Below, in pieces: positions 164-44,447 of a DNA stretch of 54,915 nt. The number at the start of each line of letters is the position of its first letter. Positions within the stretch are counted from its first letter, which is position 1. This stretch comes from Terriglobia bacterium (lineage in GTDB: Bacteria > Acidobacteriota > Terriglobia > JAJPHL01), in NCBI GenBank assembly GCA_021325275.1, contig JAJPHL010000035.1:1-54915 (forward strand). Reading direction: 5' to 3'. The notes beneath the pieces are model-generated. The model made no database searches. It saw only the letters and a list, made by a program, of their open reading frames with translations, and had not been told where the DNA came from. Made by a program: the position numbers and the translations under genes.

Positions 164-1582
164 TCAGCCGCCGGCGGTCATGGGTGGCTGCAAGCGATTG
201 GCGTCGCAGGAGCATAGCCCCACGAGGTCGTGACTATTGTAGTTGGCGGTCGGCTGAAGAAGCCGCCTATCCATAGTGGACAGCGACAGCTTGAGATCGG
301 AATAGGCTGCCCCTTCATGAAAAATCCGGAGCGCCTCCGCCACGACAAGGCTGGCAGCGGTCGCACCGACAAAAGGAACGGCAACGGCTTTCCCGGCCAA
401 CTGGTATCGGCCGCACTCATCGTCGGTCAGGGCTTGGTAAGCGGGATTTTCGTCCGCCATGCGTTGCTTTTCGGCAGCCATTTTTTCTTCTTCGTCCGCG
501 CTGATGTCAGGCCACAGATCGTTAGGCAGACGCGCATTGGGAAGCGTGTGCAGGGCAATTGTGTCGAAGTTGCTCGCCGTGCCGCCTAAACCGCTCTCAA
601 TAACGCGAGCAAACTCCGCAGTGCCAAGATCGCGGCGCGGCGGATTGGAGTCGAAGCCGCAGAACGCGAGCTTCGGTTCTTTGGTGCGGCATCGGAAGTG
701 CTCATCGAAGGGGCGCTCGATCAGCCGCGTCTGAAAACCGCGCTCCTCAAGCCAAGTACAACATATTCTCGTCTTGTACCGGCCCTGGTCTTCATTCCTG
801 AACAGAAGGCCGGTCTCCAAGTTTGGTCCCTCGACCTTGTCGAAGTCATTGAGGTAGATTTTTACTTCGCCGGGATTTGAATATGGCATTGTCGCGAGCG
901 ACCAGAGATAAGCATTCCCGAGATGTCCCAAGCCGAGGACCCAGAGTTCGCGGGGAAGAAACTCAACCGGAACCCCAAGCGCCTCAGGGGCGCTCACATC
1001 TGCGTCCGGCCGCCAGAGCGATAACGCTACCGTCCGGCGAGTCGCGGTGATGCTGATGTCGGCAAACGCGGAAAACAGCTCGGCGATCGCAAGCGAGCCG
1101 GCCAGAACTCCTGCGAGTGAACAATACTCACGTTGGGGCAACGGCTCGACGACGTGAGCTGATCCCACTTTCGCGATCCATCCGTCGAACGTGGCACGCA
1201 ACGCGTCGTGGGGAGCGAGAGCGTTGCCAAAAACAACGGCGTGCCCGGATGCCATCTTGTCGACTGTCGTGAGTGCGTCTGTGCTGAGGATAGTGCGCAC
1301 TGCGGACCCAAGATTTTGCTTGCGAGATGGCCAGATCAATAGGGGCGTGTCGGCGACATCGGGCTCAAGGGCGACGGTTACGGCCCCGGGAAAGCAGCGA
1401 TGGGCGATGTTGGCGGCGGTGAGCAGGGCGAGTTGGAGCGTGTAAGAATGCCGGAGGTCTCGGCCGCCGAGCAGATTGACGGCGAACTGCCGACGGCGGT
1501 CAATGACTTCGGCCACGCCGGTCTGGTCACGATCCACCAACAGTTTTGAAATGCGAGACAAATCCACTGCTTGGTTATTCAT
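164..1582 (-). CDS. E1-like (ThiF/UBA-type) activating enzyme of a bacterial ubiquitin-like conjugation operon
   Basis: 472 residues from the ATG at 1582, six bases after the JAB stop and preceded by GGTGAG; a longer in-frame start at 1645 would overlap the JAB gene. The C-terminal half is a ThiF/E1 adenylation domain: glycine-rich nucleotide loop GLGHLGNA at residues 217-224, then DFDKVEGPNLETG (246-258) with the acidic/Asn ATP-binding residues. A charged insertion (about 350-388) ends at Cys390 in DDECG, directly before the helix GATAASLVVAEALR, the usual place for the E1 catalytic cysteine. The N-terminal ~200 residues contain a similar helix (SLAGVLAGSLAIAELF) but no nucleotide loop, suggesting an inactive adenylation-like domain, as in E1 enzymes of this class. 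Expected role is to adenylate the C-terminal glycine of the Ubl encoded at 2569-3105 and pass it on. It is the last gene of the operon. The family call is confident; substrate and chemistry are inferred from context. Confidence 0.88.
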   Translation of the reverse strand: MNNQAVDLSRISKLLVDRDQTGVAEVIDRRRQFAVNLLGGRDLRHSYTLQLALLTAANIAHRCFPGAVTVALEPDVADTPLLIWPSRKQNLGSAVRTILSTDALTTVDKMASGHAVVFGNALAPHDALRATFDGWIAKVGSAHVVEPLPQREYCSLAGVLAGSLAIAELFSAFADISITATRRTVALSLWRPDADVSAPEALGVPVEFLPRELWVLGLGHLGNAYLWSLATMPYSNPGEVKIYLNDFDKVEGPNLETGLLFRNEDQGRYKTRICCTWLEERGFQTRLIERPFDEHFRCRTKEPKLAFCGFDSNPPRRDLGTAEFARVIESGLGGTASNFDTIALHTLPNARLPNDLWPDISADEEEKMAAEKQRMADENPAYQALTDDECGRYQLAGKAVAVPFVGATAASLVVAEALRIFHEGAAYSDLKLSLSTMDRRLLQPTANYNSHDLVGLCSCDANRLQPPMTAGG

Positions 1583-1587
1583 TACTC

Positions 1588-2082
1588 TCACCAAAGTGTT
1601 AACGCGATGCGTGCATTTTTCGCGGCGGCGCGGTGCGTGCGCCATTTGCAGTCGCCAAGATACTCGTAGATGCCAATCGCACTAAGCGACCACCACGGAG
1701 TGCGGGCAAAACTCGGAATGATCAAGGCCGTATGGCCTACGATCGGCACCATGGGATTCTGCTGATCGGTTGGGCTCTGTAGAACGCCGCGGGGATGTGT
1801 ATGCACGTCGGCCAGCACCCGCAGCTTGTTTTCGCGGCAGTATTGCCAGAGGGCTGCGTGTCCGGCAGCATGGAAGGCGATAGCTCCGTGCTGATAGGCG
1901 TCGGGGTCGAGTTCGTCATAGCAAATATACCGGCTGACCTTCGCGCCGTTTTTGTGCGGAATCCCGAGCAGAAACGCACCGCTCTCTCGACGCCCCGCGC
2001 ATTTTTTTCGCAACCGTAGAATGACCTCTCGCCAGAGGACCACGGGAAGGCGAATTGGAATGGTCAAAGGGTTAGTTGCCAA
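1588..2082 (-). CDS. JAB/MPN (JAMM) metallo-isopeptidase, deubiquitinase-like
   Basis: 164 residues from a TTG start that overlaps the end of the E2-like gene by 11 bases. A complete JAMM zinc site is visible: Glu33 in RRESGAFLLG, His94-x-His96, Ser103 and Asp106 (HTHPRGVLQSPTD). The gap between the second His and the Ser is six residues, one shorter than the common x7 spacing. JAB proteins in bacterial Ubl operons process the Ubl tail or remove Ubl from targets. Here the Ubl gene already ends in glycine, so deconjugation is the more likely job (inference). It sits third in the order Ubl-E2-JAB-E1, and the overlap and short gaps indicate one transcript with translational coupling. Confidence 0.88.
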   Translation of the reverse strand: MATNPLTIPIRLPVVLWREVILRLRKKCAGRRESGAFLLGIPHKNGAKVSRYICYDELDPDAYQHGAIAFHAAGHAALWQYCRENKLRVLADVHTHPRGVLQSPTDQQNPMVPIVGHTALIIPSFARTPWWSLSAIGIYEYLGDCKWRTHRAAAKNARIALTLW

Positions 2083-2563
2083 GGTAATCTCCGGAATTCA
2101 GAAGCGAATGGATTTCCTGCAAATAATCCACGATAGTGTGGTTGCCCGTCCATATGAGGTGCGGTTGAGTTGTCGGCCAGTCGGCGTGCTCTTGAGCGGC
2201 AATCCGGTCATATGGGTGGTAGAAGGCGTGGTTCTTCCAGTCAGTACGGAAAACCTTCGCAAATCGGCTGTTGGGAGCGCCTTTCGGACGCTTCTCGATT
2301 TCGAGCGCAGCCTTGGTCGACACGTCCCAGAATGTGCCGGTCGGTGGAACGGACCGATATCCGCTGAGATCAAGCAGAACGAAATAACGCTGCGGAGCGT
2401 TAGGCCTCTCCGCCGCGGCGATCCACAAGACCCTGTTCGGCCACTCGGGCGGCTCCGGAACGAGGTCCTGGTCGGGAATGCCCCAGAACCCCTTCGCGGC
2501 ACCGGCTTTGAATTCGGCCGACAGTAAATCCTCACCGAACAAACGCTGATCAGGTTTATCCAT
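2072..2563 (-). CDS. E2-like conjugating-enzyme fold protein lacking any cysteine
   Basis: 163 residues from the ATG at 2563, five bases after the Ubl stop. An upstream in-frame extension to 2830 would overlap the Ubl gene and is rejected. Position between the Ubl and JAB genes, size, and the pattern of a short strand-rich core (QRYFVLLDLSGYRSVPPTG, residues 58-76) followed by a FYHPYDR segment (114-120, compare the His-Pro motif of E2 enzymes) point to the bacterial E2-like family. No cysteine occurs anywhere in the 163 residues, so a thioester cannot form. Candidate nucleophiles are Ser, Thr or Tyr side chains, or the protein could act as a scaffold. I recall that some bacterial Ubl pathways (Bub) were reported to use a non-thioester E2 intermediate, but cannot verify that here. 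The E2 call rests mainly on operon position and weak motif resemblance. Confidence 0.72.
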   Translation of the reverse strand: MDKPDQRLFGEDLLSAEFKAGAAKGFWGIPDQDLVPEPPEWPNRVLWIAAAERPNAPQRYFVLLDLSGYRSVPPTGTFWDVSTKAALEIEKRPKGAPNSRFAKVFRTDWKNHAFYHPYDRIAAQEHADWPTTQPHLIWTGNHTIVDYLQEIHSLLNSGDYLGN

Positions 2564-2568
2564 ATGCA

Positions 2569-3105
2569 CTAGCCCTGTGGCGTAATCTCTTTGACAAGAT
2601 CGAAACACAGCGAACAGTGCGGCGCACTCACGAGTTCGCCGAGATGGAAGTCGGAGCGCGGGCGCTCCGCGCTTTTGCAGAGTTGGAGAACGTATTCGCT
2701 CGCGATCTTGGGATCGATGGGAAACTTCCGGCGCGCCCAATGAGCCACAACCCCGACCGTAGCTGCGGGGGAAAACCTCCGGTGCTTCGTGTCGTGGCCA
2801 AAATTTACCGCAACAGCCACGCGGCGGCAACGATGGCAGTGAATGTGATGGTGATGCTTGATTTTGAGGGTCTCAATGGTCAACGTGATGTCGATCGGCT
2901 CGTGCTGGTCCGAGCCATCTTCGATTTCCTTGGGTTCATGCAACGCATCTTCGCATTCTCCAACAAAGACGAGGGTGTCCTCGCCTTCCTTGAAAAATCC
3001 CGTCCGGATCAACACATCTCGGAGGATCTCGCCGGGCGCGGCGACAACGACCTTCGGTTTCGCCGCCTGCCCATGAACGAACAATTCCAGTTCATCGTTG
3101 TGCAT
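2569..3105 (-). CDS. Tandem ubiquitin-like (beta-grasp) protein with zinc knuckles and C-terminal glycine
   Basis: 178 residues, ATG at 3105 preceded by AAGGTGA. Two beta-grasp-like units can be read. Unit one covers residues 5-82: strands ELELFVHG and KVVVAAPG, helix EILRDVLIRTG, strand DTLVFVGE, and a last strand DITLTIETL. Unit two covers 94-178: strand RVAVAVNFG, strand KHRRFSPAAT, helix VGVVAHWARRKF, strand EYVLQLC, final strand CFDLVKEITPQG. Unit two is bracketed by Cys90-x2-Cys93 and Cys164-x2-Cys167, consistent with one bound zinc. A histidine run (84-87, 89, 91) lies just before. The chain ends Thr-Pro-Gln-Gly, exposing a terminal glycine as needed for adenylation without trimming. 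First gene of the Ubl-E2-JAB-E1 operon and its presumed conjugated modifier. The two-domain layout resembles ISG15-like BilA proteins. The fold assignment is by eye. Confidence 0.8.
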   Translation of the reverse strand: MHNDELELFVHGQAAKPKVVVAAPGEILRDVLIRTGFFKEGEDTLVFVGECEDALHEPKEIEDGSDQHEPIDITLTIETLKIKHHHHIHCHRCRRVAVAVNFGHDTKHRRFSPAATVGVVAHWARRKFPIDPKIASEYVLQLCKSAERPRSDFHLGELVSAPHCSLCFDLVKEITPQG

Positions 3106-3162
3106 AAATCACCTTTCCCCCCGTCATAGGGGCTTGCATCGGAAGTGCCGAAGTGTCATAGT

Positions 3163-3258
3163 ACTGTCTTGACGGACAACGGTTCCTCCGCGCCATTTAC
3201 TCGACATGGCGCGGTGTTCCATTGAGGATCGCCTCAAATCGTTGTCCATACAGACAAC
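3163..3258. promoter_or_regulatory. Paired operators between the Ubl operon and the XRE regulator
   Basis: Two sites share the same geometry. The first is ACTGTC-N6-GACAAC at 3163-3180 and the second is GTTGTC-N6-GACAAC at 3241-3258, the latter a perfect 6+6 inverted repeat. One lies on the side of the Ubl operon (58 bases from its start), the other 37 bases before the XRE start. The likely reader is the XRE protein encoded at 3295, giving coordinated repression of both directions. The motif is seen; the binding protein is inferred. Confidence 0.62.
3188..3214. promoter_or_regulatory. 9-bp perfect inverted repeat in the divergent promoter region
   Basis: CCGCGCCAT and ATGGCGCGG are separated by nine bases and lie between the two TGTC-N6-GACA operators. 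No T-run follows on either strand, so it is unlikely to be a simple terminator. It may be a third protein-binding site or an RNA hairpin in one leader. Confidence 0.4.
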
Positions 3259-3294
3259 AGTATCACGCACGCATCTTTGTGTCAAGGAGAGCTA

Positions 3295-3687
3295 GTGGAT
3301 CAGCCGTCCTTCGGGTTTTTACTTCGTTATTTGCGAGATCAGAGAGGTCTTTCACTTCGTGAGTTTGCGCAGTTGGCGGACGTGGATCACGCCTATGTTT
3401 ACCGTTTGGAGGCCGGCGATAAAGAGTCGCCGTCCGAGGAAGTAGTGACGAAGTTCATACGGGCACTGAAAGCGGGAAAGCGCGAGGCTAATATGCTGCG
3501 CTACTTGGCAGAACATCCCGATACGGACGCTGCGCTGGTTTCACACGTCATGAATGACCCAACCGTGACCTATGAGATCTTCACCTCTACTGCCAGCATG
3601 GTGTTTCGGGGTACCGGACGTCCGGATTATTCGAAGAGGATCGCCCTTGTGCGAAGGATTCTGGAGGAAGAGCAGAATGATGGATGA
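3295..3687 (+). CDS. XRE-family (Cro/CI) transcriptional regulator
   Basis: 130 residues. I choose the GTG at 3295 because AAGGAG lies five bases upstream; an in-frame TTG at 3277 has no such site. Residues about 8-60 form a helix-turn-helix: FLLRYLRDQRGLSLREFAQLA then VDHAYVYRLEAG. The rest is a short C-terminal tail that could hold the cleavage site of its partner protease. The stop overlaps the start of the ImmA-like gene, a pairing in which a DNA-binding repressor is destroyed by a metalloprotease on stress. The gene diverges from the Ubl operon and is the obvious candidate to bind the TGTC-N6-GACA operators. The arrangement resembles the CapH/CapP control pair of CBASS systems (functional analogy, inferred). 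Confidence 0.85.
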   Translation: MDQPSFGFLLRYLRDQRGLSLREFAQLADVDHAYVYRLEAGDKESPSEEVVTKFIRALKAGKREANMLRYLAEHPDTDAALVSHVMNDPTVTYEIFTSTASMVFRGTGRPDYSKRIALVRRILEEEQNDG

Positions 3688-4540
3688 GACTACGGTGGTA
3701 ATCAGGGCCCGGGGGCTGGTTGCTGAAGTGAAGCCGACTGAGATTCCCGTACCCATCGAGGCGTATCTGAATCACGTCGGCGCGACTCTGCGTGTTGAGG
3801 ATGATCTCGAAGAAGATGAAGCAGGCTTTTCATTCCAAAGTAATGGCAAGTGGTACATTGGGGTTAACGGCAACGACCGCGAAGAACGGCAGCGATTCAC
3901 CATTTGCCATGAGTTGGCGCACATAGTCCTTCAATTACCGTCCGAACACAAGGCAAGCCCTTGGTGGAGTTACATGAAACGGCCGAAAACCGAAATCCTC
4001 TGTGACGTCTTTGCCGCGGAATTGCTTCTTCCGTTCCGCCTCTTCCAACCGTTAGCAGAAGGAATGGCAATCAGCTTCACCTCGATCGACGAACTCGCCG
4101 CGCGGTTTATGGCTTCACGAACCGCAACGGGTTCTCGGTTCGCAACCGTCATTAAGGCTCCGTGCGCCTTTGTCCTGTCTGAGCAAGGAAAGGTCCGATA
4201 CGCTGCGCGATCCACTTCCTTGAGAGAAGCCAGTGCATGGATCCCGCCGCGGCGAGATATTCCTGCAGGCAGCGTCTCGGGACGCCTTAGGGCTGGCGAG
4301 AAGAATCTGGTCGCCGAGGCGATCGATGCGGAGGACTGGTTTAACGATTGGGATCGCGGTGGAACGCTGATGGAAGAGGCCCGCTATCACAGTGAGTGGG
4401 ACCAAACGTTAACTCTGCTGTCGTTCGAAGACGAAGAAATTCCACCGCCATCATGGGCACCGCCCCGACTAAGTGAAGAGGATGAACTCCTGCCGGAACT
4501 GGACGGCGTGCTCCGCTTCAAAAGCAAGAAAGGCCGCTAG
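3677..4540 (+). CDS. ImmA/IrrE-type zinc metallopeptidase
   Basis: 287 residues from the first of two adjacent ATG codons, with GGAGGAAG six bases upstream; it overlaps the XRE stop by 11 bases. The zinc motif HELAH is at 78-82 within RFTICHELAHIVL, and the downstream helix CDVFAAELLLP supplies a plausible third ligand, Glu115. This is the domain layout of ImmA/IrrE proteins, which inactivate XRE repressors by cleavage. The C-terminal ~120 residues are a family-specific extension with many acidic residues and no motif I recognise. Co-translation with the XRE gene and divergence from the Ubl operon suggest it relieves repression of that operon under a signal such as DNA damage or infection; the signal is unknown. 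Confidence 0.88.
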   Translation: MMDETTVVIRARGLVAEVKPTEIPVPIEAYLNHVGATLRVEDDLEEDEAGFSFQSNGKWYIGVNGNDREERQRFTICHELAHIVLQLPSEHKASPWWSYMKRPKTEILCDVFAAELLLPFRLFQPLAEGMAISFTSIDELAARFMASRTATGSRFATVIKAPCAFVLSEQGKVRYAARSTSLREASAWIPPRRDIPAGSVSGRLRAGEKNLVAEAIDAEDWFNDWDRGGTLMEEARYHSEWDQTLTLLSFEDEEIPPPSWAPPRLSEEDELLPELDGVLRFKSKKGR

Positions 4541-8870: not shown

Positions 8871-11800
8871 TTACCTTTGCGGCGCGGTGCCATCGCGGAC
8901 GCACGCCCAATGGACCTCGTGCGATTCATCCGACATCGAGGCTTTCGCAAACGGACACGTGAACGCCGCTGGATTCGGCGTGCCTCTCATGAAATGGGGA
9001 CATTCATCCATTGCGGTTCGGCGATCCTCGCGCCGCCGGATCATCGGAATGCGTCCGAGCTGGACCAGGGCATCCATACATTTTGTTCCGGTCTGGGTGC
9101 TCTCATCATTGGGATCCGCGGGGGCCTGCATTTTCGCAAATCCCGCGAGGGTTTCGTAACACCCGTTGGCGATCGATCGCTGAATCCGCTTCTGATCCAT
9201 GCCCATGGACTTGCAGAATGCAAACGTACCGTTTAGGTGATCCTTGGAGCGGGGATAAATCGACATCACTTTGCAAACCACCACGCCTTTCAGAAAGTCC
9301 AGCTCGCGCTGGCTGGCCGGCGTGGCCCCGGAAGTGAGCAGCCGGCCCACTTGGCGATGGACGCTTTCGGCCGTCATTTGCATGGACACGAGTTTGACGT
9401 TGTCCTGCAGCGAATCGGCGCGCTGCTTGGTGGCGAGAATCGAGTCGTAAGGTCCGTCCCTGTCCTCGGCTCGGGACGGCAACACGTCCAATGCTCCGGC
9501 CAGAATCAGATCCGGGCGATCGTGGCGCGCCTGAAGACAATCCATGACGCGTTCCTTGGGATGCGCTTCGAGGTGAGCAAGCTGCGCTTGGGAAAGGATC
9601 TGGACCGCCGGCAAAAACGGCAGGTTGTCGAACAAGCCGCCATCGGAATAGAAAACGTTCGGAAGGCCGGCGCCCGGGAACACCGAGCTCTGGCGGCGCG
9701 GCGCAAAGACGGCTGGAAATGCGCTGGAGGATAGCGCCGCCTCCACATAGTCGTAGGGCGCGCCGGGGTAGAGTCCCCAACCGCCGAGCAAGACGGACGA
9801 CTGCGTGCCCAAGTCGGTGGTGTCACCGAAGTACGCAATCGGCCGCGATTGCGAGAAGCCGGCGAAGGGCTGGCGAGCGCCGGCTGGCGCGATTTGTTCG
9901 CCGAGTAGATCGCGTGCCGCAATCTCCAACAATGACGTGCCGATCACGGACGTCTCAATTCCCATGCGGCTCAATGTCTCTCGCTTGAGTTGGGTTCCAA
10001 ACAATTGGACAGCTTCGGCCACGTGACCGGCGACAAACGCCGCGGCGATCCGGGAAGTTTGACGGTGCGGGACCATGAACAAGTCGGAAATGGCGTCGAT
10101 CAACGCCGCCGGCGCGCCGGAAACGGCAAAACCGGCGTCGGAGCGGCTTCCCCGGTGAACCATGCGATGGATATCCCGCGGCGAGAGATGCACGGCACGC
10201 CCGCGTAATCCTAGTTCGCGGGCCGCCGCCTTCACCGTTTTGGTCAGCGCGACTTTGTCGTCGACGTGCAGAAATGTTTTGACCAACCGATCGAGAGTAT
10301 CTCTTTGGAACGCGAACATGGCGCCGAGCGCACCGCCCATCAACGTGCCGACCGACGCGCCCACGATCAGATCCGGCTGAATATTGCAGTCGCCCAGCGC
10401 CGCCACCATTCCGATGTGGAATGCGCCGCGGAAAACTCCGCCATTGGCTAGAAAAACGATTCGCGGCTCGGCGCCGGAGAGATTCGGGAATGTTTTCAAC
10501 AACTGGGTGCGCTCACCGATCGAAGCCACCAGCGATACCAGGGGAGAAACGGTGTCGTGAGGTTTTGGTTTCCGCAATTGTTGCGTGCAGCGGCGGCAAA
10601 CTTCAGGCAAGCCCGGCGTCTCGCCTAGGAATCCGGCGCGGCGATCGGTGATGCGCACGAGCAACTCGCGGCAGGGAACGTGGCCCTCGCCGGGTATCGC
10701 CCTGAGATCGTCGCGATATAAACGCTCCAGCGAGGCTCGGCAGCCGGCCGCGACCACCGCCAAAACGTCGTCGCGCGATGGATCGAGCGGTCGTTTGAAT
10801 TCCAGTTCTTGATCCGGTGCGATCTCGTCGGCGAACACCGTCTCCGGCGCGCGGGTTCCTTCGGGACCTGGAACTCCTTCCGGAATCATTCGTTCAAGCG
10901 CGCTTAGGAAATTCGTATTGATGACTTCGAGCTGGGTGTCGCGGCGCTTCGAGAGAGTCATGCTGCGAATGCCAACGTCGATGATGTCGGGAGGTGTGTC
11001 GGAGGTCGGAATCTCCGCGCCCGAACGCGGGCGAATGGGAACCGAGTAAACCACATGGATCGCGGGCCGCCTGTTCCGCCGCTGCCCCGCCGTCAAGGTT
11101 GCGACCACCGGCGAGGTGGGATTCCGCCGCAGGTAGGTGAACAGAGCAGGAATCGGATTCTGCCGAACCACGCTGCCGTCCACCAGCGCCAACGGCTCCT
11201 TTTTGTTCTTGGCCTTCCACTCTTGTTCCAGATCCGCGCTCAACCAACACTCCCGTTCCTCGGGTGTTCGCAGAAGCGTAGGCTCGAACAACGGCGGCAG
11301 CGCCAGCGCCGTGCGCAACGCATCGACCAATGGCGTGCCGGTGCGGGCCCACAGTTGCATCGCGTCCTTGGGCTTGTCGTTCAGTGTGAGGGTTTGAAGG
11401 GGCGCAGCCACGATCAACACCGGCATGGGATCTTCGCTCAACACGGCCCCAACATGCGTGGTGGAATCGTGCGACACACTCCAAGCCGGATCGAAGAGCT
11501 TGGCCAAGCGGTAACTAAGGTGATAATGCGGCACGATGCCTTTGAGCAAACCCACCTGCTTCAGGATGTCCGAGATCACAGGCCGCCCCACTTCCGGGAT
11601 CGAGGCTACCGTAAAGATTCGCACCCAGGTCAGGTTCAAGACCGCGCCGGAAAGATAATAAATGAGCAGGTCCGGCGTGTCGGACGGAAAGAACGCCCCA
11701 ATCAACGTCAGAAGCTTCCACGCAACCCACCAAGCGACTGCCATCAGGACAGCGACCGCGCCGCGCCACACCAACGGGTAGGCAGTCGCGCGTCGCTTGA

Positions 11801-13223
11801 GCCAATCGCTCCGCATGACGCACCGGCGCAGAAACCAGGCGCCGATCGCCAGGATCAAGGCACTCGCAAACGGGGCAACACATGCGCAGATCGCCGGCAA
11901 CAGGCGCTTCACGATTTCCAGTCGCGCGTTCGCTTCGTCTCCTCGCTCAGGGTGCAGCGCGTGATATCCGTGATAGATGAGCAGAATAATGCAGGTCTCG
12001 GTGTAGCAAATCAGGCTGATCGCGTGAACTGTGAGAAACGAAAAGATTGGCCAACCAAATAGCGGCCGTTGGATTCTCAAACGAAGCTTGGGCAACAATC
12101 CTCGACGCACCATCCAATGACGAAGTTCCGGAACCGCGGCGAGCGGTACCGAGACGATAAAGCTGACCAGCAACCAGAAGAACCCGATAACAATTGCAAT
12201 TCCCGCGGCGTCGGAGTGCCCGACGATGGCCCAGATTATTGCTCCCCCAAGCGCCAGGAGGGTCACGAAGTTGAAAATGGAACCGCCATAGATGAAGGCG
12301 CGAATCACGGGACTGACGAAACGTCGAACAAACGGCCGGCTGATGATCCAGCGCCGGAGGCGAGCGGTGAAGCTGATGCCCCATAACAACACCACGACCG
12401 CGCCAACGCTAAACCAGATCCTCGGGAACCATTCACCCACCTTGCGAGACACCGCGTCGGGAAAACTTCCGGCGAATCCTCCAATCCCCACCAGGGCAAT
12501 GATGATCAAGCCGAAAATGAGGCTCACCAGGTTGAACGCGCCGAGGATTCGCCAACCAAATGGCGGCGAAGCTCCGCGTTCCGCGGCAGGGGCATCGAAC
12601 TGGTAATCCGGAAACATCTCCGGAGAGAGCATCGCGTAAATCACCAACTGCGTGACCAACACGAGTGCGGACCAGAGCACACTCAAAGCGCTCTTGAATC
12701 TTTGAAAGGCCGGGAACTTTTCTTGAACGCGTACCCAACTCACGATGAGTTGGGCCACGCGGCCGACGCGCAACGGCAAGCGAGCCAGCCATCGACCTAA
12801 GCGAACCAACAAGTATCGCCGCCGGCGCGCGTCGCGTTCCACCGGCTTGAGATAGTCGGGTGCGGCCGAGTCGCGAATGGGAATCATGTCGGCGAAGAAA
12901 TCGGATTGATCGGGCAAAGCCTCCCAGAGCACCGCCCAGGAATTGTCGGTGAATTCCTGGAGGTATTTCCGAAACCATTGCCAGCGCGCGGCCTCTTCGG
13001 CAGGCGCCGGCAAGCCCGCGCCTTTGGCCGCTTCGCGATACGCCGTCTGCATGGCGACCGCACTGACGGCACCCATCGAAATACCGGCGACAATGGCGGG
13101 TGGCTTGCGCTCCGCGGCGAGATACGCATGAATCGTCCCGGCGCCGAAAACCGCGCCGGCGGGTCCGGCTGTGAAACAGATGGCGTCGTCGCCGCCCTGT
13201 GGTTCCGGCGGGTGGGGTTGCAT
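8871..13223 (-). CDS. Giant double-patatin phospholipase-like membrane protein
   Basis: 1450 residues; ATG at 13223 with AGGAG upstream. Two patatin modules are visible. Module one has an oxyanion-type loop GPAGAVFGAG (about 20-29), nucleophile elbow GISMG with Ser49, and an Asp-Gly (VDGSVVRQNP) only at about residue 680. Between them lie about nine hydrophobic segments (about 175-570), so a membrane domain appears inserted inside the catalytic module. Module two has NGGVFRGAFHIG, elbow GASVG (Ser near 956) and YSDGGLFDN (Asp near 1191), a full Ser-Asp dyad. The C-terminal ~200 residues are Cys-rich and of unknown role. Patatins are acyl hydrolases of membrane lipids. No N-terminal signal peptide is seen. 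Stand-alone gene, divergent from 13252. Confidence 0.85.
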   Translation of the reverse strand: MQPHPPEPQGGDDAICFTAGPAGAVFGAGTIHAYLAAERKPPAIVAGISMGAVSAVAMQTAYREAAKGAGLPAPAEEAARWQWFRKYLQEFTDNSWAVLWEALPDQSDFFADMIPIRDSAAPDYLKPVERDARRRRYLLVRLGRWLARLPLRVGRVAQLIVSWVRVQEKFPAFQRFKSALSVLWSALVLVTQLVIYAMLSPEMFPDYQFDAPAAERGASPPFGWRILGAFNLVSLIFGLIIIALVGIGGFAGSFPDAVSRKVGEWFPRIWFSVGAVVVLLWGISFTARLRRWIISRPFVRRFVSPVIRAFIYGGSIFNFVTLLALGGAIIWAIVGHSDAAGIAIVIGFFWLLVSFIVSVPLAAVPELRHWMVRRGLLPKLRLRIQRPLFGWPIFSFLTVHAISLICYTETCIILLIYHGYHALHPERGDEANARLEIVKRLLPAICACVAPFASALILAIGAWFLRRCVMRSDWLKRRATAYPLVWRGAVAVLMAVAWWVAWKLLTLIGAFFPSDTPDLLIYYLSGAVLNLTWVRIFTVASIPEVGRPVISDILKQVGLLKGIVPHYHLSYRLAKLFDPAWSVSHDSTTHVGAVLSEDPMPVLIVAAPLQTLTLNDKPKDAMQLWARTGTPLVDALRTALALPPLFEPTLLRTPEERECWLSADLEQEWKAKNKKEPLALVDGSVVRQNPIPALFTYLRRNPTSPVVATLTAGQRRNRRPAIHVVYSVPIRPRSGAEIPTSDTPPDIIDVGIRSMTLSKRRDTQLEVINTNFLSALERMIPEGVPGPEGTRAPETVFADEIAPDQELEFKRPLDPSRDDVLAVVAAGCRASLERLYRDDLRAIPGEGHVPCRELLVRITDRRAGFLGETPGLPEVCRRCTQQLRKPKPHDTVSPLVSLVASIGERTQLLKTFPNLSGAEPRIVFLANGGVFRGAFHIGMVAALGDCNIQPDLIVGASVGTLMGGALGAMFAFQRDTLDRLVKTFLHVDDKVALTKTVKAAARELGLRGRAVHLSPRDIHRMVHRGSRSDAGFAVSGAPAALIDAISDLFMVPHRQTSRIAAAFVAGHVAEAVQLFGTQLKRETLSRMGIETSVIGTSLLEIAARDLLGEQIAPAGARQPFAGFSQSRPIAYFGDTTDLGTQSSVLLGGWGLYPGAPYDYVEAALSSSAFPAVFAPRRQSSVFPGAGLPNVFYSDGGLFDNLPFLPAVQILSQAQLAHLEAHPKERVMDCLQARHDRPDLILAGALDVLPSRAEDRDGPYDSILATKQRADSLQDNVKLVSMQMTAESVHRQVGRLLTSGATPASQRELDFLKGVVVCKVMSIYPRSKDHLNGTFAFCKSMGMDQKRIQRSIANGCYETLAGFAKMQAPADPNDESTQTGTKCMDALVQLGRIPMIRRREDRRTAMDECPHFMRGTPNPAAFTCPFAKASMSDESHEVHWACVRDGTAPQR

Positions 13224-25186: not shown

Positions 25187-26404
25187 ATGAATGTATCGTT
25201 CAAACAAAAGCTGGCCGCAGCGGCACTCGCGGCGGGAATCCTCGCGTCAATGCTCACTTTAGCGGGGTGTTCGAGGAACGCGTCCGCCAATGCGGGCCAG
25301 CCGCCGACAGTGGTGCAGGTCGCGACGGTCGAGCAACGCGACGTTCCGATCGATCGCGAATGGATCGGCACGCTCGACGGAAAAGTCAACGCCGCCATCA
25401 AGGCGGAAGTGAGCGGCTATCTGATGTTACAGAATTACACCGAAGGTTCCTTCGTCAGAAAAGGGCAATTACTCTTTGAAATCGATCCGCGGCCGTTTCA
25501 AGCGGCGCTCGATCAGGCGCAAGGACAACTCGCACAGGCCAAGGCGCAGGTGACGCAGGCACAAGCCAAGCTCGCGCAGTCGGTGGCGAATCAGGGACGA
25601 ACGCAGCTCGACGTGGACCGTTACACGCCCCTGGCGAAACAGCAAGCCATCACGCAACAAGACCTCGACAACGCCGTACAGAACAACATCGCCGCCCAAG
25701 CGCAGATCGAAGCCTCGAAAGCGGATGTCGAGACGGCGCGCGCGCAAATCCAAGCGGCTACCGCCGCCGTGGACGCGGCAAAAGTGAACATCGGCTTCAC
25801 GCACTTGATTTCGCCGATTGACGGAATCGCCGGACAGGCCCTCGTGCAGGTGGGCAATCTCGTTGGCCCAACGACCGGAACGATCACCACGGTGTCGACC
25901 GTCGATCCGATCAAAGCGAATTTCACGGTCGGCGAGCAGGAGTATCTGAGCTTGACGCGCGGCGCGGGCAATCTCGCAAAAATGCGACTCGAACTGGTTC
26001 TCGCCGACGGAAGCGTCTACCCAACGAAGGGCACGTTCTCGTTTGCCGATCGGCAAGTGGACCAAAACACCGGCGCGATTCAGTTGACGGGACTCTTTCC
26101 GAATCCCGGGAATCGATTGCGGCCGGGACAATACGGCAGGGTACGCGCTGCCACGGGCACAACAGCAGGTGCGTTGCTGATTCCGCAGCGCGCCGTGTCG
26201 GAACTACAAGGCAGCTATCAAGTGGTCGTTGTGAACAACACCGACACCGTGGACGTTCGCAAGGTGAAAGTCGGCGGACAAATCGGAACCATGTGGATCG
26301 TAACCGAAGGACTCCAGGCAGGCGAGCGCGTAGTGGCCGAGGGCGCGCAAAAGGTGCGTCCCGGCATGAAAGTCAGCCCGAAGCCTTTTGTGGAGGGCAA
26401 CTAA
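25187..26404 (+). CDS. RND efflux periplasmic adaptor lipoprotein
   Basis: 405 residues; GGAGG eight to nine bases before the ATG. Lipoprotein signal ending LTLAGC. Barrel-sandwich halves around GYLMLQNYTEGSFVRKGQLLFEIDPRPFQAAL, then a long coiled hairpin (AQGQLAQAKAQVTQAQAKLAQSV...) and the second lipoyl half (LISPIDGIAGQALVQVGNLV), then the beta-barrel and membrane-proximal domains. AcrA/MexA-type. Links the inner-membrane pump at 26406 with the outer-membrane channel at 29612; a single base separates it from the pump gene. Confidence 0.95.
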   Translation: MNVSFKQKLAAAALAAGILASMLTLAGCSRNASANAGQPPTVVQVATVEQRDVPIDREWIGTLDGKVNAAIKAEVSGYLMLQNYTEGSFVRKGQLLFEIDPRPFQAALDQAQGQLAQAKAQVTQAQAKLAQSVANQGRTQLDVDRYTPLAKQQAITQQDLDNAVQNNIAAQAQIEASKADVETARAQIQAATAAVDAAKVNIGFTHLISPIDGIAGQALVQVGNLVGPTTGTITTVSTVDPIKANFTVGEQEYLSLTRGAGNLAKMRLELVLADGSVYPTKGTFSFADRQVDQNTGAIQLTGLFPNPGNRLRPGQYGRVRAATGTTAGALLIPQRAVSELQGSYQVVVVNNTDTVDVRKVKVGGQIGTMWIVTEGLQAGERVVAEGAQKVRPGMKVSPKPFVEGN

Positions 26405-26405
26405 C

Positions 26406-29400
26406 ATGTCTAAGTTCTTCATCAATCGTCCCATTGTCGCGATGGTCATCGCCATCATCACGTTGATTGTGGGAGGCGTGGCGATTTCGAACCTGCCAAT
26501 CTCACAGTTTCCCGCCATCGTTCCGCCGGAGATTCAGCTTCAAGCGAATTACGTCGGCGCGGACGCCAAAACGCTGGAGCAGGCGGTTGCCACGCCCATC
26601 GAACAGCAAATCAATGGCGTGGACAACATGAACTACATGTACTCGTTGAACGCCACGGGTAGTTCGTCGACGACCATCGTCGTGGACTTCGACATCAAGA
26701 CCGATCCGAACACGGATTTGATTCTGACGCAGTCGCGCGAGAATCTGGCGGCGGGCCAACTTCCGCCCGACGTGAACAGTTACGGCGTCACCATCAAGAA
26801 GTCGGTGACGGCTCCGCTGATGTTGGTATCGCTCTTCTCGCCGCACGGCACTCGCGACGCGCAATTCATGTCCAACTACGCGTTCATCAACCTCAACGAT
26901 CCCATCGCGCGCTCCTACGGCATCGGGCAGACCACCGTTTTCGGCGCGGGCGAGTATGCCATGCGACTGTGGGTGAAGCCCGACCAGTTGGCCAAGCTCG
27001 GCATCACGGTCACCGACATCGTCAACGCGGTGCAGGCGCAGAACACGGTGAATCCCGCGGGACAAGTCGGCGGGGCCCCCGCGCCGAGCAATCAGCAATT
27101 CACTTATTCGGTGCTCGCGCAAGGCCGCCTGACTTCACCGGAAGAATTCGGCGAAGTGATCGTCCGCGAGAATCCCAATGGCGGAACGGTGCGCGTGAAG
27201 GATGTCGCGCGCATCGAACTCGGCGGTCAGGACTACAGCATTGTCAGTCGCCTGAATGGCAAGAACGCCGCGATCCTGGCGATCTATCAGTTGCCGGGAT
27301 CGAATGCTGTGCAAGCGGCCGCCGGCGTACGGAAATTGATGACGCAGATGAAGCAAAGTTTCCCCGACGATATGGAATACGCCATATCGCTCGACCAAAC
27401 CCAGGCCGTCACGGAGGGAATGCGGGAAATCATCGAGACGTTGCTGATCGCGATTGCGCTGGTGATCGCGGTCATCTACATCTTCTTGCAAGACTGGCGC
27501 GCTACGCTCATCCCTCTGCTGGCCGTGCCTGTGTCGCTCGTGGGCACGTTCATCTTTTTCCCGCTGTTCGGATTCTCCATCAACACGCTCTCGATGTTCG
27601 GGTTGGTGCTGGCGATCGGTCTCGTAGTCGATGACGCCATCGTCGTGGTGGAAGGCGTACAACGTCACATCGAAGAGGGTTTGTCGCCCAAAGACGCGGC
27701 GAGAAAAGCGATGGAAGAGCTGGCGAGTCCCGTGATCGGAATTGCGTTGGTCCTCTCGTCGGTCTTCGTGCCCACGGCGTTCATTCCCGGCATCACCGGC
27801 AGACTCTACCAGCAATTCGCCGTAACCATCGCGATCTCGGTGGTGCTGTCGGCGTTCAATGCGCTGACGCTCAGTCCCGCGCTGGCCGCGTTGCTGCTGC
27901 GCCCGAGGAAAGAGAGCGGCGGTTTGCTGCAGAGATTCTTCAACTGGTTCAACGGAGTTTTCGGCCGCGGCACCGAGCTCTACGTCCGCTTGTGCGGCAG
28001 TTTCATTCGGAAGGGCGCGCTGGCTTTCGTGGTAATCGCGGGCTTCGCGTTGGGCGCATTTTTCTTTGACCGCCATCTGCCATCGAGCTTCCTGCCCGAT
28101 GAAGATCAGGGCTACCTGTACATCAACATGCAGCTTCCCTATGCGGCTTCCATCGAACGGACGCAAGCCGCATCGAAACAAGTGGAGGAGATCCTGGCCA
28201 ATACGCCCGGCGTGCAGTACACAACGTCGGTGAACGGTTTCAGTTTGCTGAGCTTCGTGCGCACGTCTTACAACGCCTTCTACTTCGTCACGTTGAAGCC
28301 GTGGAGCGATCGCAAAACTAGAGCGGAACAGTATCAGGAAATCAAGGCGCGTCTGAACGGGCAACTCGCGAGTTTGCCGCAAGGAACAGCCTTCAATTTC
28401 TCGCCGCCGGCGATTCCGGGCGTTGGCACCTCGGGAGGATTTACGTTCGTCCTGGAAGACCGCGCCGGACGCGACGTTCAGTTCCTGGCGAACAATCTGG
28501 ACAAATTCATTGCGGCCGCGCGCAAGCGTCCCGAAATCGGCGGGATCAGCACCACGTTTCTGCCGAGCGTTCCGCAGAAGTTCGTGAATGTCGACCGCGA
28601 GAAAGTTCTGAAGCAAGGCATTGCGGTCAACGATGTTTATCGAACGATTCAAGCTTTCATGGGCGGATTGTTCATCAACTACTTCAACGATTTCGGCCGC
28701 ACCTGGCAGGTGTACATCGAGGCGGAAGCGCCGTATCGGTCGAATCTCGAGAACGTCGGACAGTTTTATGTCCGCAACAGCAGCGGCCAGATGGCGCCGC
28801 TCTCCGCGCTGACGAAATTCGAGTCGCGCAATGGACCCGAGTTCACCATGCGTTACAACGAGTATCGCTCGGCGCAACTCAACGGCGCCGCGGCGCCCGG
28901 CTACAGTTCCGATCAAGCCACCGCGGCGCTGGAACAGGTTTTCCACGAAACGATGCCCGCCGAAATGGGCTTCGACTACATGGGAATGTCCTATCAAGAG
29001 CAGAAAGCGCGCCAGGGACTTTCGCCATCGGTCATCTTCGGGTTCTCGCTGCTTTTCGTGTTCCTGGTTCTCGCGGCGCTCTACGAAAAATGGTCGTTGC
29101 CGTTCAGCGTTCTGCTGGGAACGTCGGGCGCGGTCTTCGGCGCGCTCTCGGTTTTGTGGTTGCGCCGCGCGGTGCTCAACGCCATCTATCCCGCGTACAT
29201 GGTGCAAATCGAGAACGACGTTTACTCGCAAATAGGCCTGGTGATGTTGATCGGTCTCGCGGCGAAGAACGCGATCCTGATTGTTGAATTCGCCAAGGAG
29301 CGTTTTGAAAACGGGCAGCCGTTAGTGGAAGCGGCGCTCGAAGCCGCGAGACTTCGCTTGCGTCCCGTGGTGATGACCTCGCTCGCGTTTCTTCTGGGTT

Positions 29401-29609
29401 GCGTTCCGCTGTGGACGGCGACCGGCGCGGGATCGGTGGCGCGCCAGATCATGGGCTCCACCGTGATCGGCGGCATGCTGGCGGCGAGCAGCGTCGACAT
29501 CCTTCTGGTTCCGGCCATCTTTTGTCTTGTCGAGAGAATTTCCGGCGCCACGCGGGCGCATGTGCCCGCGATCGCGCCGCAAACCCCGGCGACGGTAACA
29601 GGAGACTGA
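26406..29609 (+). CDS. RND (HAE1-type) inner-membrane efflux pump
   Basis: 1067 residues, ATG at 26406. Starts MSKFFINRPIVAMVIAIITLIVGG, the standard AcrB/MexB opening. The proton-relay pair is in LVVDDAIVVVEG and the matching Lys in AAKNAILIVEFAKE. Twelve membrane segments in two repeats with two large periplasmic loops; full length for the family. Exports drugs or hydrophobic compounds with the flanking adaptor and channel. Substrate not predictable. A 698-codon open frame on the opposite strand is a codon-bias shadow. Confidence 0.95.
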   Translation: MSKFFINRPIVAMVIAIITLIVGGVAISNLPISQFPAIVPPEIQLQANYVGADAKTLEQAVATPIEQQINGVDNMNYMYSLNATGSSSTTIVVDFDIKTDPNTDLILTQSRENLAAGQLPPDVNSYGVTIKKSVTAPLMLVSLFSPHGTRDAQFMSNYAFINLNDPIARSYGIGQTTVFGAGEYAMRLWVKPDQLAKLGITVTDIVNAVQAQNTVNPAGQVGGAPAPSNQQFTYSVLAQGRLTSPEEFGEVIVRENPNGGTVRVKDVARIELGGQDYSIVSRLNGKNAAILAIYQLPGSNAVQAAAGVRKLMTQMKQSFPDDMEYAISLDQTQAVTEGMREIIETLLIAIALVIAVIYIFLQDWRATLIPLLAVPVSLVGTFIFFPLFGFSINTLSMFGLVLAIGLVVDDAIVVVEGVQRHIEEGLSPKDAARKAMEELASPVIGIALVLSSVFVPTAFIPGITGRLYQQFAVTIAISVVLSAFNALTLSPALAALLLRPRKESGGLLQRFFNWFNGVFGRGTELYVRLCGSFIRKGALAFVVIAGFALGAFFFDRHLPSSFLPDEDQGYLYINMQLPYAASIERTQAASKQVEEILANTPGVQYTTSVNGFSLLSFVRTSYNAFYFVTLKPWSDRKTRAEQYQEIKARLNGQLASLPQGTAFNFSPPAIPGVGTSGGFTFVLEDRAGRDVQFLANNLDKFIAAARKRPEIGGISTTFLPSVPQKFVNVDREKVLKQGIAVNDVYRTIQAFMGGLFINYFNDFGRTWQVYIEAEAPYRSNLENVGQFYVRNSSGQMAPLSALTKFESRNGPEFTMRYNEYRSAQLNGAAAPGYSSDQATAALEQVFHETMPAEMGFDYMGMSYQEQKARQGLSPSVIFGFSLLFVFLVLAALYEKWSLPFSVLLGTSGAVFGALSVLWLRRAVLNAIYPAYMVQIENDVYSQIGLVMLIGLAAKNAILIVEFAKERFENGQPLVEAALEAARLRLRPVVMTSLAFLLGCVPLWTATGAGSVARQIMGSTVIGGMLAASSVDILLVPAIFCLVERISGATRAHVPAIAPQTPATVTGD

Positions 29610-41132: not shown

Positions 41133-44100
41133 CTAGAAAAAGATTTTCAAGGCAAACTGGATCTGCCGGGAAGTGGTGGACGTTGAGTTCAGGAATCCCG
41201 CTGACGCGATCGGGTTCAGCACCGCCGTCGCGCCTTTTCCAGACAAGCCGAACAACTGCGCGCTGGCCGCGGTGGGCGGGCTGAAGTTGGTGTGATTCAC
41301 AATGTTGAACATCTCGGCGCGGAACTGGATGCGGAACTGCTCGGAAACCTTCGGCACCGCAATGTTCTTCACCATCGACCAATCCAGATTCATCAGTCCC
41401 GGCCCGACAATTTCATTGCGTCCGCCATCGCCCAAGCGGGTGATCGGCGTGGGCGCGGCGAAGCACTGGAGTTTGATGTAGCTCGTGGGGTTGCCGGGAT
41501 TCACCGGATTCCCGCAACCCGGTGAGTTCAGACGGTCGGGGAAGTCGTACGGCACGCTGCTGTTCAATCCCAGGGCGTCGCCGGAGATGGCCGCGGTGAA
41601 CGGCAAGCCGTCCGATACTTGCAGGATCGTGCTGAATTGCCAACCGCGCTCCAGCCAGTTGAGCGGCTTCACCGTCGTCTTCCATTCGGGAACTTCCCAA
41701 ATGCCGTTGATGGTGGCGATTCGGCCGTCATTGAAATCGGAGGGCGCCTTGCGTAGGTGCGAATCGAAAATCGGCAAGCTCGAGACGCTGTTGGTGTACG
41801 CGGTTTGGATCGACGCCGAAGACGTATCCAGACTCTTCGACCACGTGTAGGCGCCCTGCACCTGCCAGCCGTGCGCCAGGCGCTTCTGCACGCGCATTCG
41901 CAACGCATCGTAGGTGGACGATACTTGCCAGAACAGCGCCGTGACGTTGCCGACAGTCGGCAGCGGCTTGGTCCCGCTGCCTTGCGGCAGCGGCCAGACG
42001 TAGCCCGCCGGCGTGAGCGTCGGCTGGACGTCGTTAATGTCGCTCGAAATGAACGGCGAGTGGACGCCGTGCGAACCGGCATAAGCCACTTCCACGATCA
42101 AGTCCTGCTTCAGGGCGTGTTGAATATTGAAGTTCCACTGCTGCACGTAATTCAGTTTGGGATTCTGCTCGATGAAAGCCGTGCGCAACGCGCCCGCGGC
42201 CACCGAGGCATAGAGATTGTTGGGAAACGATCCCGTTCCCAGCGTAGTGCTCGATCCTTGTTCCAGATAGGGAGCCGAAAGCGAGGACAGCAGCGACATT
42301 TCGTAGGTCAACGGCAGGGAATCGTAGATTCCAAAACCGCCCCGGAAAACCGTTTTGCCGCTGCTGAACGGCGTCCACGCAAAGCCGACGCGCGGCGAGA
42401 AATCGAGCTTCGTCGGATTGTTGAAATACGGCGATCCAATGTGAATCACCGGCGAACTGAGCGTGGTCAGCGTCGCCAGCCGGTTGTGCTCTTCGGTGGG
42501 CACGCTGGCCATCTCGTAACGGATTCCAAGATTCAGCGTCAAGTTGTGGCGTACGCGCCAGTCGTCTTGCAGGTAAGCGCCGAAGATGGACTGCCGTTGT
42601 CCCAGTGGAGTGCCGGTGCCGGGGACGTTGGCCGAAAAACCGGTGGGCTGATTTTGCAAGAACCCCGCGATGGAACCAAAGGTCGCCGTACCGTTGGAAG
42701 CGCCCGCGCCTTGGGCGTTGGAATAGAGACGCTCAAAACCCGCGCCCATCTTCAGCGAGTGGCTGCCGCGGGTCATGGAAAGATCGTCGTAGGCTTGGTA
42801 GGAGGTGTAGTTGAAGTGATAATCGCCGATCGCTCCCACGCCGCCGAGGAAGAGCGTGTACCCGCCGATGTTGATTTGCCCCAAGTTGCGGCCGGGCACG
42901 AATCCCAGCGAGGGATCGGACGCCGCTGGGTTGATCGCGGCGATGGACGCCACCTGCTCGGCGACCACGCGGTTCACGCCAATCCGCGCGAAGTTGATCA
43001 CAGTCGGCGAGAAGATGTGGCTCTCTTCGATATTGGCGGTTTGGCGGCGCGACAACGTGCCATCGAGCACGAAGTCGTAGGCGTCCGGCCCGTTTGTGTC
43101 GCCCCGGTCGATCAAGTAGGTTCCGTGCACCAAGTCCTTGTCGGAAAAACGGTGATCCAATCGAGTAGTGAAGAAATTCTCGTGGGTGATGTTCTCCGCG
43201 CTGAAGGCAAAAGTGCCCGCATCACCTTTCGTTCCGGAGTTGGGCAGCGGAAAGAGAGCCAGATAAGGCGCCACCTTCGGATCCACCTTCACCGTTCCGG
43301 CCACCAGGATTCCATTGTGCGCGTTGGCGGAAGGCACCGTATCAACCGTGCTGACACCCAAACCTTGTTGCACTCCTTCATAGTCCAAGAAGAAGAACGT
43401 GCGATCGCTGTGGATCGGACCACCGACCGATCCTCCGAACTGATTCCGCTTGAAGGGCGGAATGACCGCGGGATCGAAAAAATTGCGCGCATCCAGCGCG
43501 CTGTTGCGGAAAAACTCGTAGCCCGATCCATGAAACTGGTCGGTACCCGATCGGGTGACCGCGTTGATGACGCCGCCCGACGTTTTGCCATAATCGGCTG
43601 GCGCGTTGCTGGTGACCACCGAAAATTCCTGGATCGCATCCACACCCAAGCTCACGCCCAGGACGCTGGCCGGTCCACTGCCGGCATAGTCGTTAAGGCT
43701 GACGCCATCGAGACGATAGTTGTTCTGCTCCGGCCGGTTTCCGCCGATCGACATCATCTGTCCCAAGCCACGATTGCCGCGCGTGTTGGCGAGTCCCGCG
43801 CCGACAGCGGCCTCGGTGCGAATAATCGCGACTCCGGGTTGCAATGCCGCAAGGCTGGTCCAGTCGCGGCCATTCAAAGGAAGTTCGCGAACCGTTTGGC
43901 CATTGTTGACCGCGCCGATGTCGGACGACGCCGTCTCTACAACGGGGGCGTCCCCCCGCACCTCTACTTTCTGCTCGGTTGCACCGAGGCTGAGTTGGAC
44001 ATCGATCACCACCGAAGCTCCTACTTCGATCAAGATTCCGGGATGCTCCGTGGTCGAGAAGCCGTGCATCTGCACGGTCAGGCGGTAGGTGCCGGGCGTC

Positions 44101-44306
44101 AGATTGGGCGCGCTGTACAAACCTGACGAACTGGACTCCACGTGGCGAACTTCATGGGTGTCCATCTTCTCAATGGTGATGGCCGCTCCTGCCACCGCCG
44201 CACCTGTGGGATCGGTGACGGTTCCCGACAACGAACCTCCCGAAAGTTGCGCCGCCGCCGCGGACGCGACTAAAAGCAAGGCCAATGGCAAAGTGAATCG
44301 CAACAT
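41133..44306 (-). CDS. TonB-dependent outer-membrane receptor with carboxypeptidase-regulatory-like domain
   Basis: 1057 residues from the ATG at 44306 (a TTG at 44321 also fits). Signal peptide LPLALLLVASAAAAQ, then the Ig-like regulatory domain LSGTVTDPTGAAVAGAAITIEKM, plug (ELPLNGRDWTSLAALQPGVAII ... VNAVTRSGTDQFHGSGYEFFRN) and a ~750-residue barrel ending in SRQIQFALKIFF. Typical acidobacterial OmpA/SusC-like importer of complex ligands. First gene of the receptor-propeller-MFS unit. The decayed relative lies at 7367-8180. Confidence 0.93.
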   Translation of the reverse strand: MLRFTLPLALLLVASAAAAQLSGGSLSGTVTDPTGAAVAGAAITIEKMDTHEVRHVESSSSGLYSAPNLTPGTYRLTVQMHGFSTTEHPGILIEVGASVVIDVQLSLGATEQKVEVRGDAPVVETASSDIGAVNNGQTVRELPLNGRDWTSLAALQPGVAIIRTEAAVGAGLANTRGNRGLGQMMSIGGNRPEQNNYRLDGVSLNDYAGSGPASVLGVSLGVDAIQEFSVVTSNAPADYGKTSGGVINAVTRSGTDQFHGSGYEFFRNSALDARNFFDPAVIPPFKRNQFGGSVGGPIHSDRTFFFLDYEGVQQGLGVSTVDTVPSANAHNGILVAGTVKVDPKVAPYLALFPLPNSGTKGDAGTFAFSAENITHENFFTTRLDHRFSDKDLVHGTYLIDRGDTNGPDAYDFVLDGTLSRRQTANIEESHIFSPTVINFARIGVNRVVAEQVASIAAINPAASDPSLGFVPGRNLGQINIGGYTLFLGGVGAIGDYHFNYTSYQAYDDLSMTRGSHSLKMGAGFERLYSNAQGAGASNGTATFGSIAGFLQNQPTGFSANVPGTGTPLGQRQSIFGAYLQDDWRVRHNLTLNLGIRYEMASVPTEEHNRLATLTTLSSPVIHIGSPYFNNPTKLDFSPRVGFAWTPFSSGKTVFRGGFGIYDSLPLTYEMSLLSSLSAPYLEQGSSTTLGTGSFPNNLYASVAAGALRTAFIEQNPKLNYVQQWNFNIQHALKQDLIVEVAYAGSHGVHSPFISSDINDVQPTLTPAGYVWPLPQGSGTKPLPTVGNVTALFWQVSSTYDALRMRVQKRLAHGWQVQGAYTWSKSLDTSSASIQTAYTNSVSSLPIFDSHLRKAPSDFNDGRIATINGIWEVPEWKTTVKPLNWLERGWQFSTILQVSDGLPFTAAISGDALGLNSSVPYDFPDRLNSPGCGNPVNPGNPTSYIKLQCFAAPTPITRLGDGGRNEIVGPGLMNLDWSMVKNIAVPKVSEQFRIQFRAEMFNIVNHTNFSPPTAASAQLFGLSGKGATAVLNPIASAGFLNSTSTTSRQIQFALKIFF

Positions 44307-44447
44307 ATCTTGAACCCCCAAGCATCGTTGATCGGGCCTGATTGTAAGTGAGCCAAGCTGAACGCAAGATGAATCGAAGCCGGCCGGAAGTTCATATTGG
44401 GTTCATGTCCTCCCTGTTACCTTGGGCGTCCGGAGAACCGTCACCCT

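Follow-up and report, generated by a model that had tools for sequence, protein, structure and literature searches.

A BilABCD operon of a Terriglobia bacterium encodes an E2-fold protein with tyrosine in place of the usual cysteine

Introduction

How can an operon for ubiquitin-like (Ubl) modification work when its E2-like protein has no cysteine? What defines an E2 enzyme is a cysteine to which the modifier is bound as a thioester. The question is raised by contig JAJPHL010000035.1 of a Terriglobia bacterium (GenBank assembly GCA_021325275.1), of which positions 1 to 54,915 (54,915 nucleotides, forward strand) are here called the window. A first-pass annotation, made from the letters and their open reading frames, had paired an E1 that keeps a plausible catalytic cysteine with an E2-like protein that has none. 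It had proposed that transfer goes through an oxyester or other non-thioester link, or that the E2 is a scaffold and the E1 transfers directly. Judged from its homologues, this E2-like protein probably acts without the cysteine-bound intermediate that is usual for E2s.

The operon is related to known anti-phage Bil systems and may likewise act in phage defence, by conjugation to a phage structural protein. In Collimonas, the Bil system modifies the central tail fibre of the phage with its Ubl, as described in an excerpt of PMC11364771.

Materials and methods

The BilB alignment comprises 40 core proteins from the window, 16 loci, four others (L018, L019, L020 and L022), 17 of 22 plasmid records and two further records. 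Sampling started from the window protein, and the residue counts given below depend on that. Dropped from the set were L001, L021, L036 and L037 (copies of included rows), L025 (which matched none of the aligned genes), L023 (only the N-terminal half of BilB), and the distant L024, L026, L027 and L028, which served as outgroup or were unused. The identical L015 and L016 were both counted, as was L046, whose BilB is truncated. The five plasmid records left out are apparently near-copies by organism and score, and six more Rhizobium records were left out as well. An ORF at L023 (positions 805-2082) seems to fuse a BilA-like end with a BilB of which only the N-terminal half is there and the active-site half is missing.

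Results

PADLOC identified four adjoining minus-strand genes at window 164-3105 as a complete BilABCD operon (Table 1). BilA matched no Pfam domain, and the Pfam matches of BilC (Prok-JAB, 2.7e-4) and BilD (ThiF, 8.4e-06) lie under the Pfam cut-off.

Table 1. Coordinates of the bil operon and of the adjoining regulatory features in the window
Feature	Position	Strand	Description
bilA	2569..3105	-	Ubiquitin-like modifier, 178 aa, C-terminal ...ITPQG with Gly as last residue; PADLOC BilA 5.9e-46
bilB	2072..2563	-	E2-fold protein, 163 aa, ATG at 2563, stop ends at 2072, no Cys, FYHPYDR at 114-120; PADLOC BilB 6.8e-47, Pfam DUF7665 1.1e-34
bilC	1588..2082	-	JAB/JAMM deconjugase, 164 aa, TTG start, 11-base overlap with bilB; PADLOC BilC 1.2e-56
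bilD	164..1582	-	E1, 472 aa, Cys390; PADLOC BilD 2.9e-135
Shared promoter region between bil operon and HTH gene	3106..3276		Divergent; two perfect inverted repeats, read by eye
HTH regulator gene (CapH-like)	3277..3687	+	Divergent from operon; HTH_31 1.1e-12
ImmA/IrrE-type M78 metallopeptidase gene (CapP-like)	3677..4540	+	Peptidase_M78 1.5e-14

The other three components are intact. The E1 cysteine named by the first-pass annotation is residue 390 of BilD when read from 1582, and its column holds cysteine in 36 of the 36 rows that extend so far, the other four loci being incomplete. It aligns with a conserved cysteine of two MoeB/ThiF-like paralogues encoded in the same genome (L050/L051). 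The JAMM residues of BilC (E, H, H, S, D) are all present in the window; both histidines, the serine and the aspartate occur in 40/40 loci and the glutamate in 39/40, missing only from the truncated L046. The C-terminal glycine of BilA is found in 40/40, with a further tail beyond it in seven. E2-fold protein, JAMM protease, E1 and Ubl are conserved together at every core locus.

A profile search of the genome found one BilB only and no second one. The other three ThiF-domain matches of the genome are all on other contigs; a second Bil operon that might help in trans was thus not seen. Searches of the genome with the Prok-E2_B and Metal_CEHH profiles found nothing; control genomes were also without matches, so these searches are uninformative.

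The count of zero cysteines in BilB was confirmed for its minus-strand ORF, and the E2-like assignment of the product was borne out by the PADLOC match within BilABCD and by structural matches. At the cysteine frequency of the 16 other gene products of the window (0.88%), the chance of zero cysteines in 163 residues is about 0.24. A cysteine-free count is unremarkable by itself. The part that is not chance lies in the aligned position and its conservation, and the argument was therefore shifted to the aligned site, residue 118 in window numbering.

The first-pass annotation had allowed that a different start or a sequencing correction might restore a cysteine. An in-frame upstream TTG start (ORF 2072-2830) was considered and rejected, because it lies within bilA and close homologues begin where the ATG lies; this TTG, which would add cysteines that are all far from site 118, is likely not the BilB start. 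Sequencing error at site 118 was likewise rejected, because seven further loci have tyrosine there, encoded by TAT or TAC.

An AlphaFold2 model of window BilB has a mean pLDDT of 90.7. In Foldseek searches with this model the leading matches are E2 enzymes, at modest E-values (best 4.0e-03). A structure aligner placed bacterial E2(BilB) 8tz0_C at the top (Z 11.3, rmsd 3.3, 131 residues), followed by eukaryotic E2s at Z about 9-10, with 1zuo_B at Z 10.2 and the Mms2 chain 1jat_B at Z 8.9. The model of a control Cys-type BilB (L006) also has 8tz0_C as top match (Z 11.2). A sequence search of solved structures found none matching window BilB. As modelled, window BilB is an E2-fold protein; the common fold says nothing on activity. 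The hallmark catalytic cysteine of E2s is absent from it, and tyrosine stands at the aligned site.

Site 118 is cysteine in 27 of the 40 aligned BilBs, tyrosine in 8 (window included), tryptophan in 3, leucine in 1 and alanine in 1. The cysteine of most BilBs thus falls within residues 114-120, the FYHPYDR region in which the first-pass annotation had suggested looking for a substitute nucleophile. Homologues with cysteine at the aligned site, which it had held to count against its own reading, do exist among these 27. However, no cysteine is found at this site in the window's own clade of eight or in five others, and the difference is therefore lineage-specific and not an artefact. Tyr-type genes encode the residue by TAT or TAC, and the five Cys-type rows compared use TGT or TGC, a difference of one base. 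Cys-less sites outside the Tyr type are Leu in L033 (Sphingorhabdus plasmid), Ala in L035 (Amnibacterium plasmid) and Trp in L047-L049 (Rhizobium and Bradyrhizobium plasmids).

FYHPYDR is identical in 8/8 Tyr-type BilBs at pairwise identities of only 39-74%. Tyr115, Arg120 and His126 are invariant in 40/40 BilBs; an active-site role for His126, as for the histidine C-terminal to the cysteine in some bacterial E2s, may be supposed. Six residues are invariant in the Tyr type and absent in the Cys type (Lys94, Phe114, His116, Tyr118, Thr143 and Asp146), three of them within FYHPYDR. The suggested alignment for an invariant Ser, Thr, Tyr or Lys gave, between residues 110 and 135 of the Tyr clade, Tyr115 and Tyr118, together with His116 and His126, and no Ser, Thr or Lys. 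No cysteine is common to the whole Tyr type, although three of the eight have one at residue 157. In all 13 Cys-less BilBs, Tyr115 is the sole invariant residue besides His126 that could act as a nucleophile.

The catalytic residues of the 8tz0 BilB are Cys138 with Glu144, His146 and His151, as given in an excerpt of PMC11354881. A residue count on the 8tz0 PDB chain agrees with these positions. The 8tz0 BilB is related to L027 (1.5e-45), which matches Metal_CEHH (PF14455). A register of hydrophobic-[Cys/Tyr]-four residues-Arg is common to 8tz0 BilB and DUF7665, and in it Cys138 falls on Tyr115, not on 118. In L024, a DUF7665 protein (1.3e-14), column 115 is Cys and 118 is Gln, and the distances to the Asp-Arg and His-Pro-x-Trp that follow are unchanged. 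The more distant E2-like L026 and L028 likewise have Cys at column 115. This comparison suggests that core BilBs have tyrosine at the classical site and that the cysteine of most lies three residues further on. Profile-profile alignment against the Metal_CEHH E2 family covers the N-terminal half only (probability 82) and ends before the active site, and global profile-profile runs did not produce a sensible register at the active site. Equating Tyr115 with Cys138 is therefore a motif argument plus one intermediate sequence.

The name BilB covers two E2 families with little sequence likeness, DUF7665 (the PADLOC BilB) and Metal_CEHH (the solved form), as seen in L027 and L056-L060 versus L006. 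Catalytic residues of one family cannot simply be transferred to the other.

The Tyr type forms one clade, with support of 99/97 on the BilB tree and 100/100 on the BilD tree. Its members are the window and five other acidobacterial genomes (L002-L005 and L022), a Mesorhizobium plasmid (L029) and a Paraburkholderia caffeinilytica plasmid (L030), and it thus spans Acidobacteriota, Alpha- and Betaproteobacteria. Pairwise dN/dS between the window and L005 is 0.108 for BilB, 0.123 for BilA, 0.081 for BilC and 0.151 for BilD. In six further pairs dN/dS does not exceed 0.35; their dS values are large or could not be computed. By these measures the Tyr-type BilB is under purifying selection. Together with its phylogeny and the intact partner sites, this indicates a stable, old and widespread lineage of Cys-less E2s, not decay or error. 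A single clade of all 13 Cys-less BilBs is not rejected on the BilD tree (p-AU 0.094), so several losses of Cys118 and its gain in one branch are both compatible with the tree. Two surveys of 321 genomes each, with the same genomes among the matches listed, matched only their own seeds and give no frequency. Viral contigs held no relative, and phage records held none for a Cys-type query.

Homologues of the divergent HTH gene are present at 6/6 acidobacterial Tyr-type loci (window counted). Homologues of the M78 gene are present at the same 6/6 and also at L029 and L047. CapH and CapP are DNA-damage regulators of immune operons according to an excerpt of PMC13373217. The window pair is alike in being HTH and peptidase genes beside a putative immune operon, with assignment by domain and position only. 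By analogy, it would probably switch the Bil operon on upon DNA damage. The inverted repeats of the intergenic region have arms at 3188-3196/3206-3214 and 3241-3246/3253-3258 (read by eye) and are possible operators.

On proteobacterial plasmids (L031-L034, L039-L043, L045 and L049), the Bil operon follows a gene for a UvrD-type or ATP-dependent helicase and has no HTH/M78 pair. These helicase-preceded operons are mostly of the Cys type and include the Leu-type L033 and the Trp-type L049. Elsewhere in the window, the 1450-residue product of positions 8871-13223 carries a patatin-like phospholipase domain close to the C-terminal end. As ordinary neighbours on a chromosome, 26388-29609 and 41133-44321 encode an AcrB-type efflux pump and a large beta-barrel protein of the outer membrane.

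Discussion

The favoured reading, to which we give about an even chance, is a Bil operon in which BilB is an adaptor that forms no thioester and BilA is transferred directly from the E1 thioester. BilD would adenylate the C-terminal glycine of BilA and hold BilA as a thioester on Cys390. The role of BilB would be to engage BilD~BilA as well as the target and to position them, never carrying BilA as a thioester itself. An amine of the target would then attack the E1-bound BilA, and BilC would mature BilA or remove it. Leu, Ala and Trp at site 118 cannot carry an acyl group, yet the E1 cysteine, the JAMM residues and the Ubl glycine are kept, so conjugation seems to be kept without an E2 cysteine. 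The Leu, Ala and Trp types therefore leave, as a mechanism common to the Cys-less forms, either transfer from the E1 thioester, which is favoured, or an ester on Tyr115. Against an adaptor count the invariance of Tyr115, which a pure adaptor does not need, and the Tyr-clade-invariant His116 and Tyr118 beside it, which resemble a retooled active site and not an abandoned one. An E2 of some further family, beyond the three profiles searched in this genome, might also act in trans.

These same residues speak for an aryl oxyester, in which BilBs of the window's clade would carry BilA on Tyr118, possibly with His116 acting as base, or BilBs across DUF7665 would carry it on Tyr115. Tyr115 is the only invariant potential nucleophile of the Cys-less BilBs apart from His126, it stands by register where 8tz0 has Cys138 and L024 has cysteine, and Tyr118 and His116 are invariant in the Tyr clade and specific to it. 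Phenol esters are activated acyl donors, closer to thioesters than alkyl esters are, and to our knowledge no E2 uses tyrosine as an acyl carrier. An ester on Tyr118 alone leaves the Leu, Ala and Trp types unexplained, and an ester on Tyr115 leans on a register that the profile-profile alignment does not reach. We regard the aryl oxyester as possible, at well below an even chance. Its broadest form, in which the whole DUF7665 family has moved the acyl carrier to Tyr115, conjugates by a tyrosyl ester, and treats Cys118 as dispensable and replaceable by Tyr, Trp, Leu or Ala, is unlikely. The oxyester and the scaffold with direct E1 transfer are still the two leading readings, and sequence alone cannot decide between them.

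Three further explanations carry less weight. UEV and Mms2 proteins are Cys-less E2 folds that assist a partner E2, and the Mms2 match to the BilB model would fit a UEV-like helper of a separate cysteine E2 whose gene lies elsewhere in the cell. BilB shares with these E2 variants (Mms2, UEV1) the fold without the catalytic cysteine; however, no partner was found here with the BilB, Prok-E2_B and Metal_CEHH profiles (the latter two with uninformative controls), and the Tyr-type plasmid operons L029 and L030 have no second E2-like annotation alongside. Such a helper is very unlikely. We are equally doubtful that BilA is activated for another purpose, such as non-covalent signalling or sulfur-type chemistry, with nothing conjugated. 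Sulfur-carrier systems likewise combine an E1-like protein with a Ubl and have no E2 thiol, but here an E2-fold protein and a JAMM protease accompany the two in every core locus, which is the plan of conjugation. Decay of the operon with loss of BilB activity is barely credible. Decay classically shows itself in the loss of a supposed catalytic residue, but FYHPYDR is kept by all eight diverged Tyr-type BilBs, each of the four genes has a low dN/dS, and the E1, JAMM and glycine sites are intact.

The window resembles BilABCD of Collimonas sp. OK412 and relatives in gene set, gene order and all four PADLOC matches, and its BilB belongs to the same E2 family (DUF7665) as that of Cys-type Bil loci. 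It differs in the tyrosine that stands where 27/40 sampled BilBs have cysteine; our guess is that the Collimonas BilB is Cys-type. The Bil system of Paraburkholderia caffeinilytica was reportedly one of those assayed for phage defence in E. coli; if that system is the plasmid operon L030, which reads FYHPYDR, its activity would bear directly on the Tyr type. The Bil operon of 8tyz/8tz0, presumably from Ensifer aridi, has given a solved E1-E2-Ubl complex whose E2 shares its fold with the window model and is its best match. That E2 is of the Metal_CEHH kind, with C-E-H-H residues, whereas window BilB is DUF7665, has no PF14455 match and lacks such a cysteine.

Cys-less E2-like proteins are on record from other bacterial Ubl operons as well. 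The polyUbl operons of row 6e have an E2/RWD-like protein without a conserved cysteine, which was judged likely inactive in the excerpted text of Iyer et al. 2006 (PMC1779556). The polyUbl and Bub operons are, like the window operon, bacterial Ubl operons with a Cys-less E2-like protein, but polyUbl operons have a polyUbl and a fused JAB-E1, whereas the window has the four-gene Bil plan. We take bub operons to be the row 6e polyUbl operons, and Ye et al. 2026, on the Bub mechanism, reportedly found a Ser oxyester. In archaea, SAMP modifiers are attached with neither an E2 nor an E3, according to an excerpt of PMC11354881. A literature search that did not extend to Hor 2024 and Chambers 2024, the primary papers on Bil, found no paper on DUF7665 or on a Cys-less BilB. 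A Cys-less E2 with a conserved tyrosine inside the Bil plan was absent from the literature searched, though it may already be in print.

Across the Bil set, a single aligned E2 position is filled by Cys, Tyr, Trp, Leu or Ala, in otherwise intact four-gene pathways small enough for one plasmid. It lets one ask directly whether an E2 must form a covalent intermediate at all. The answer bears on how E1-only conjugation could predate E1-E2 relays, and on whether oxyesters can replace thioesters in Ubl transfer.
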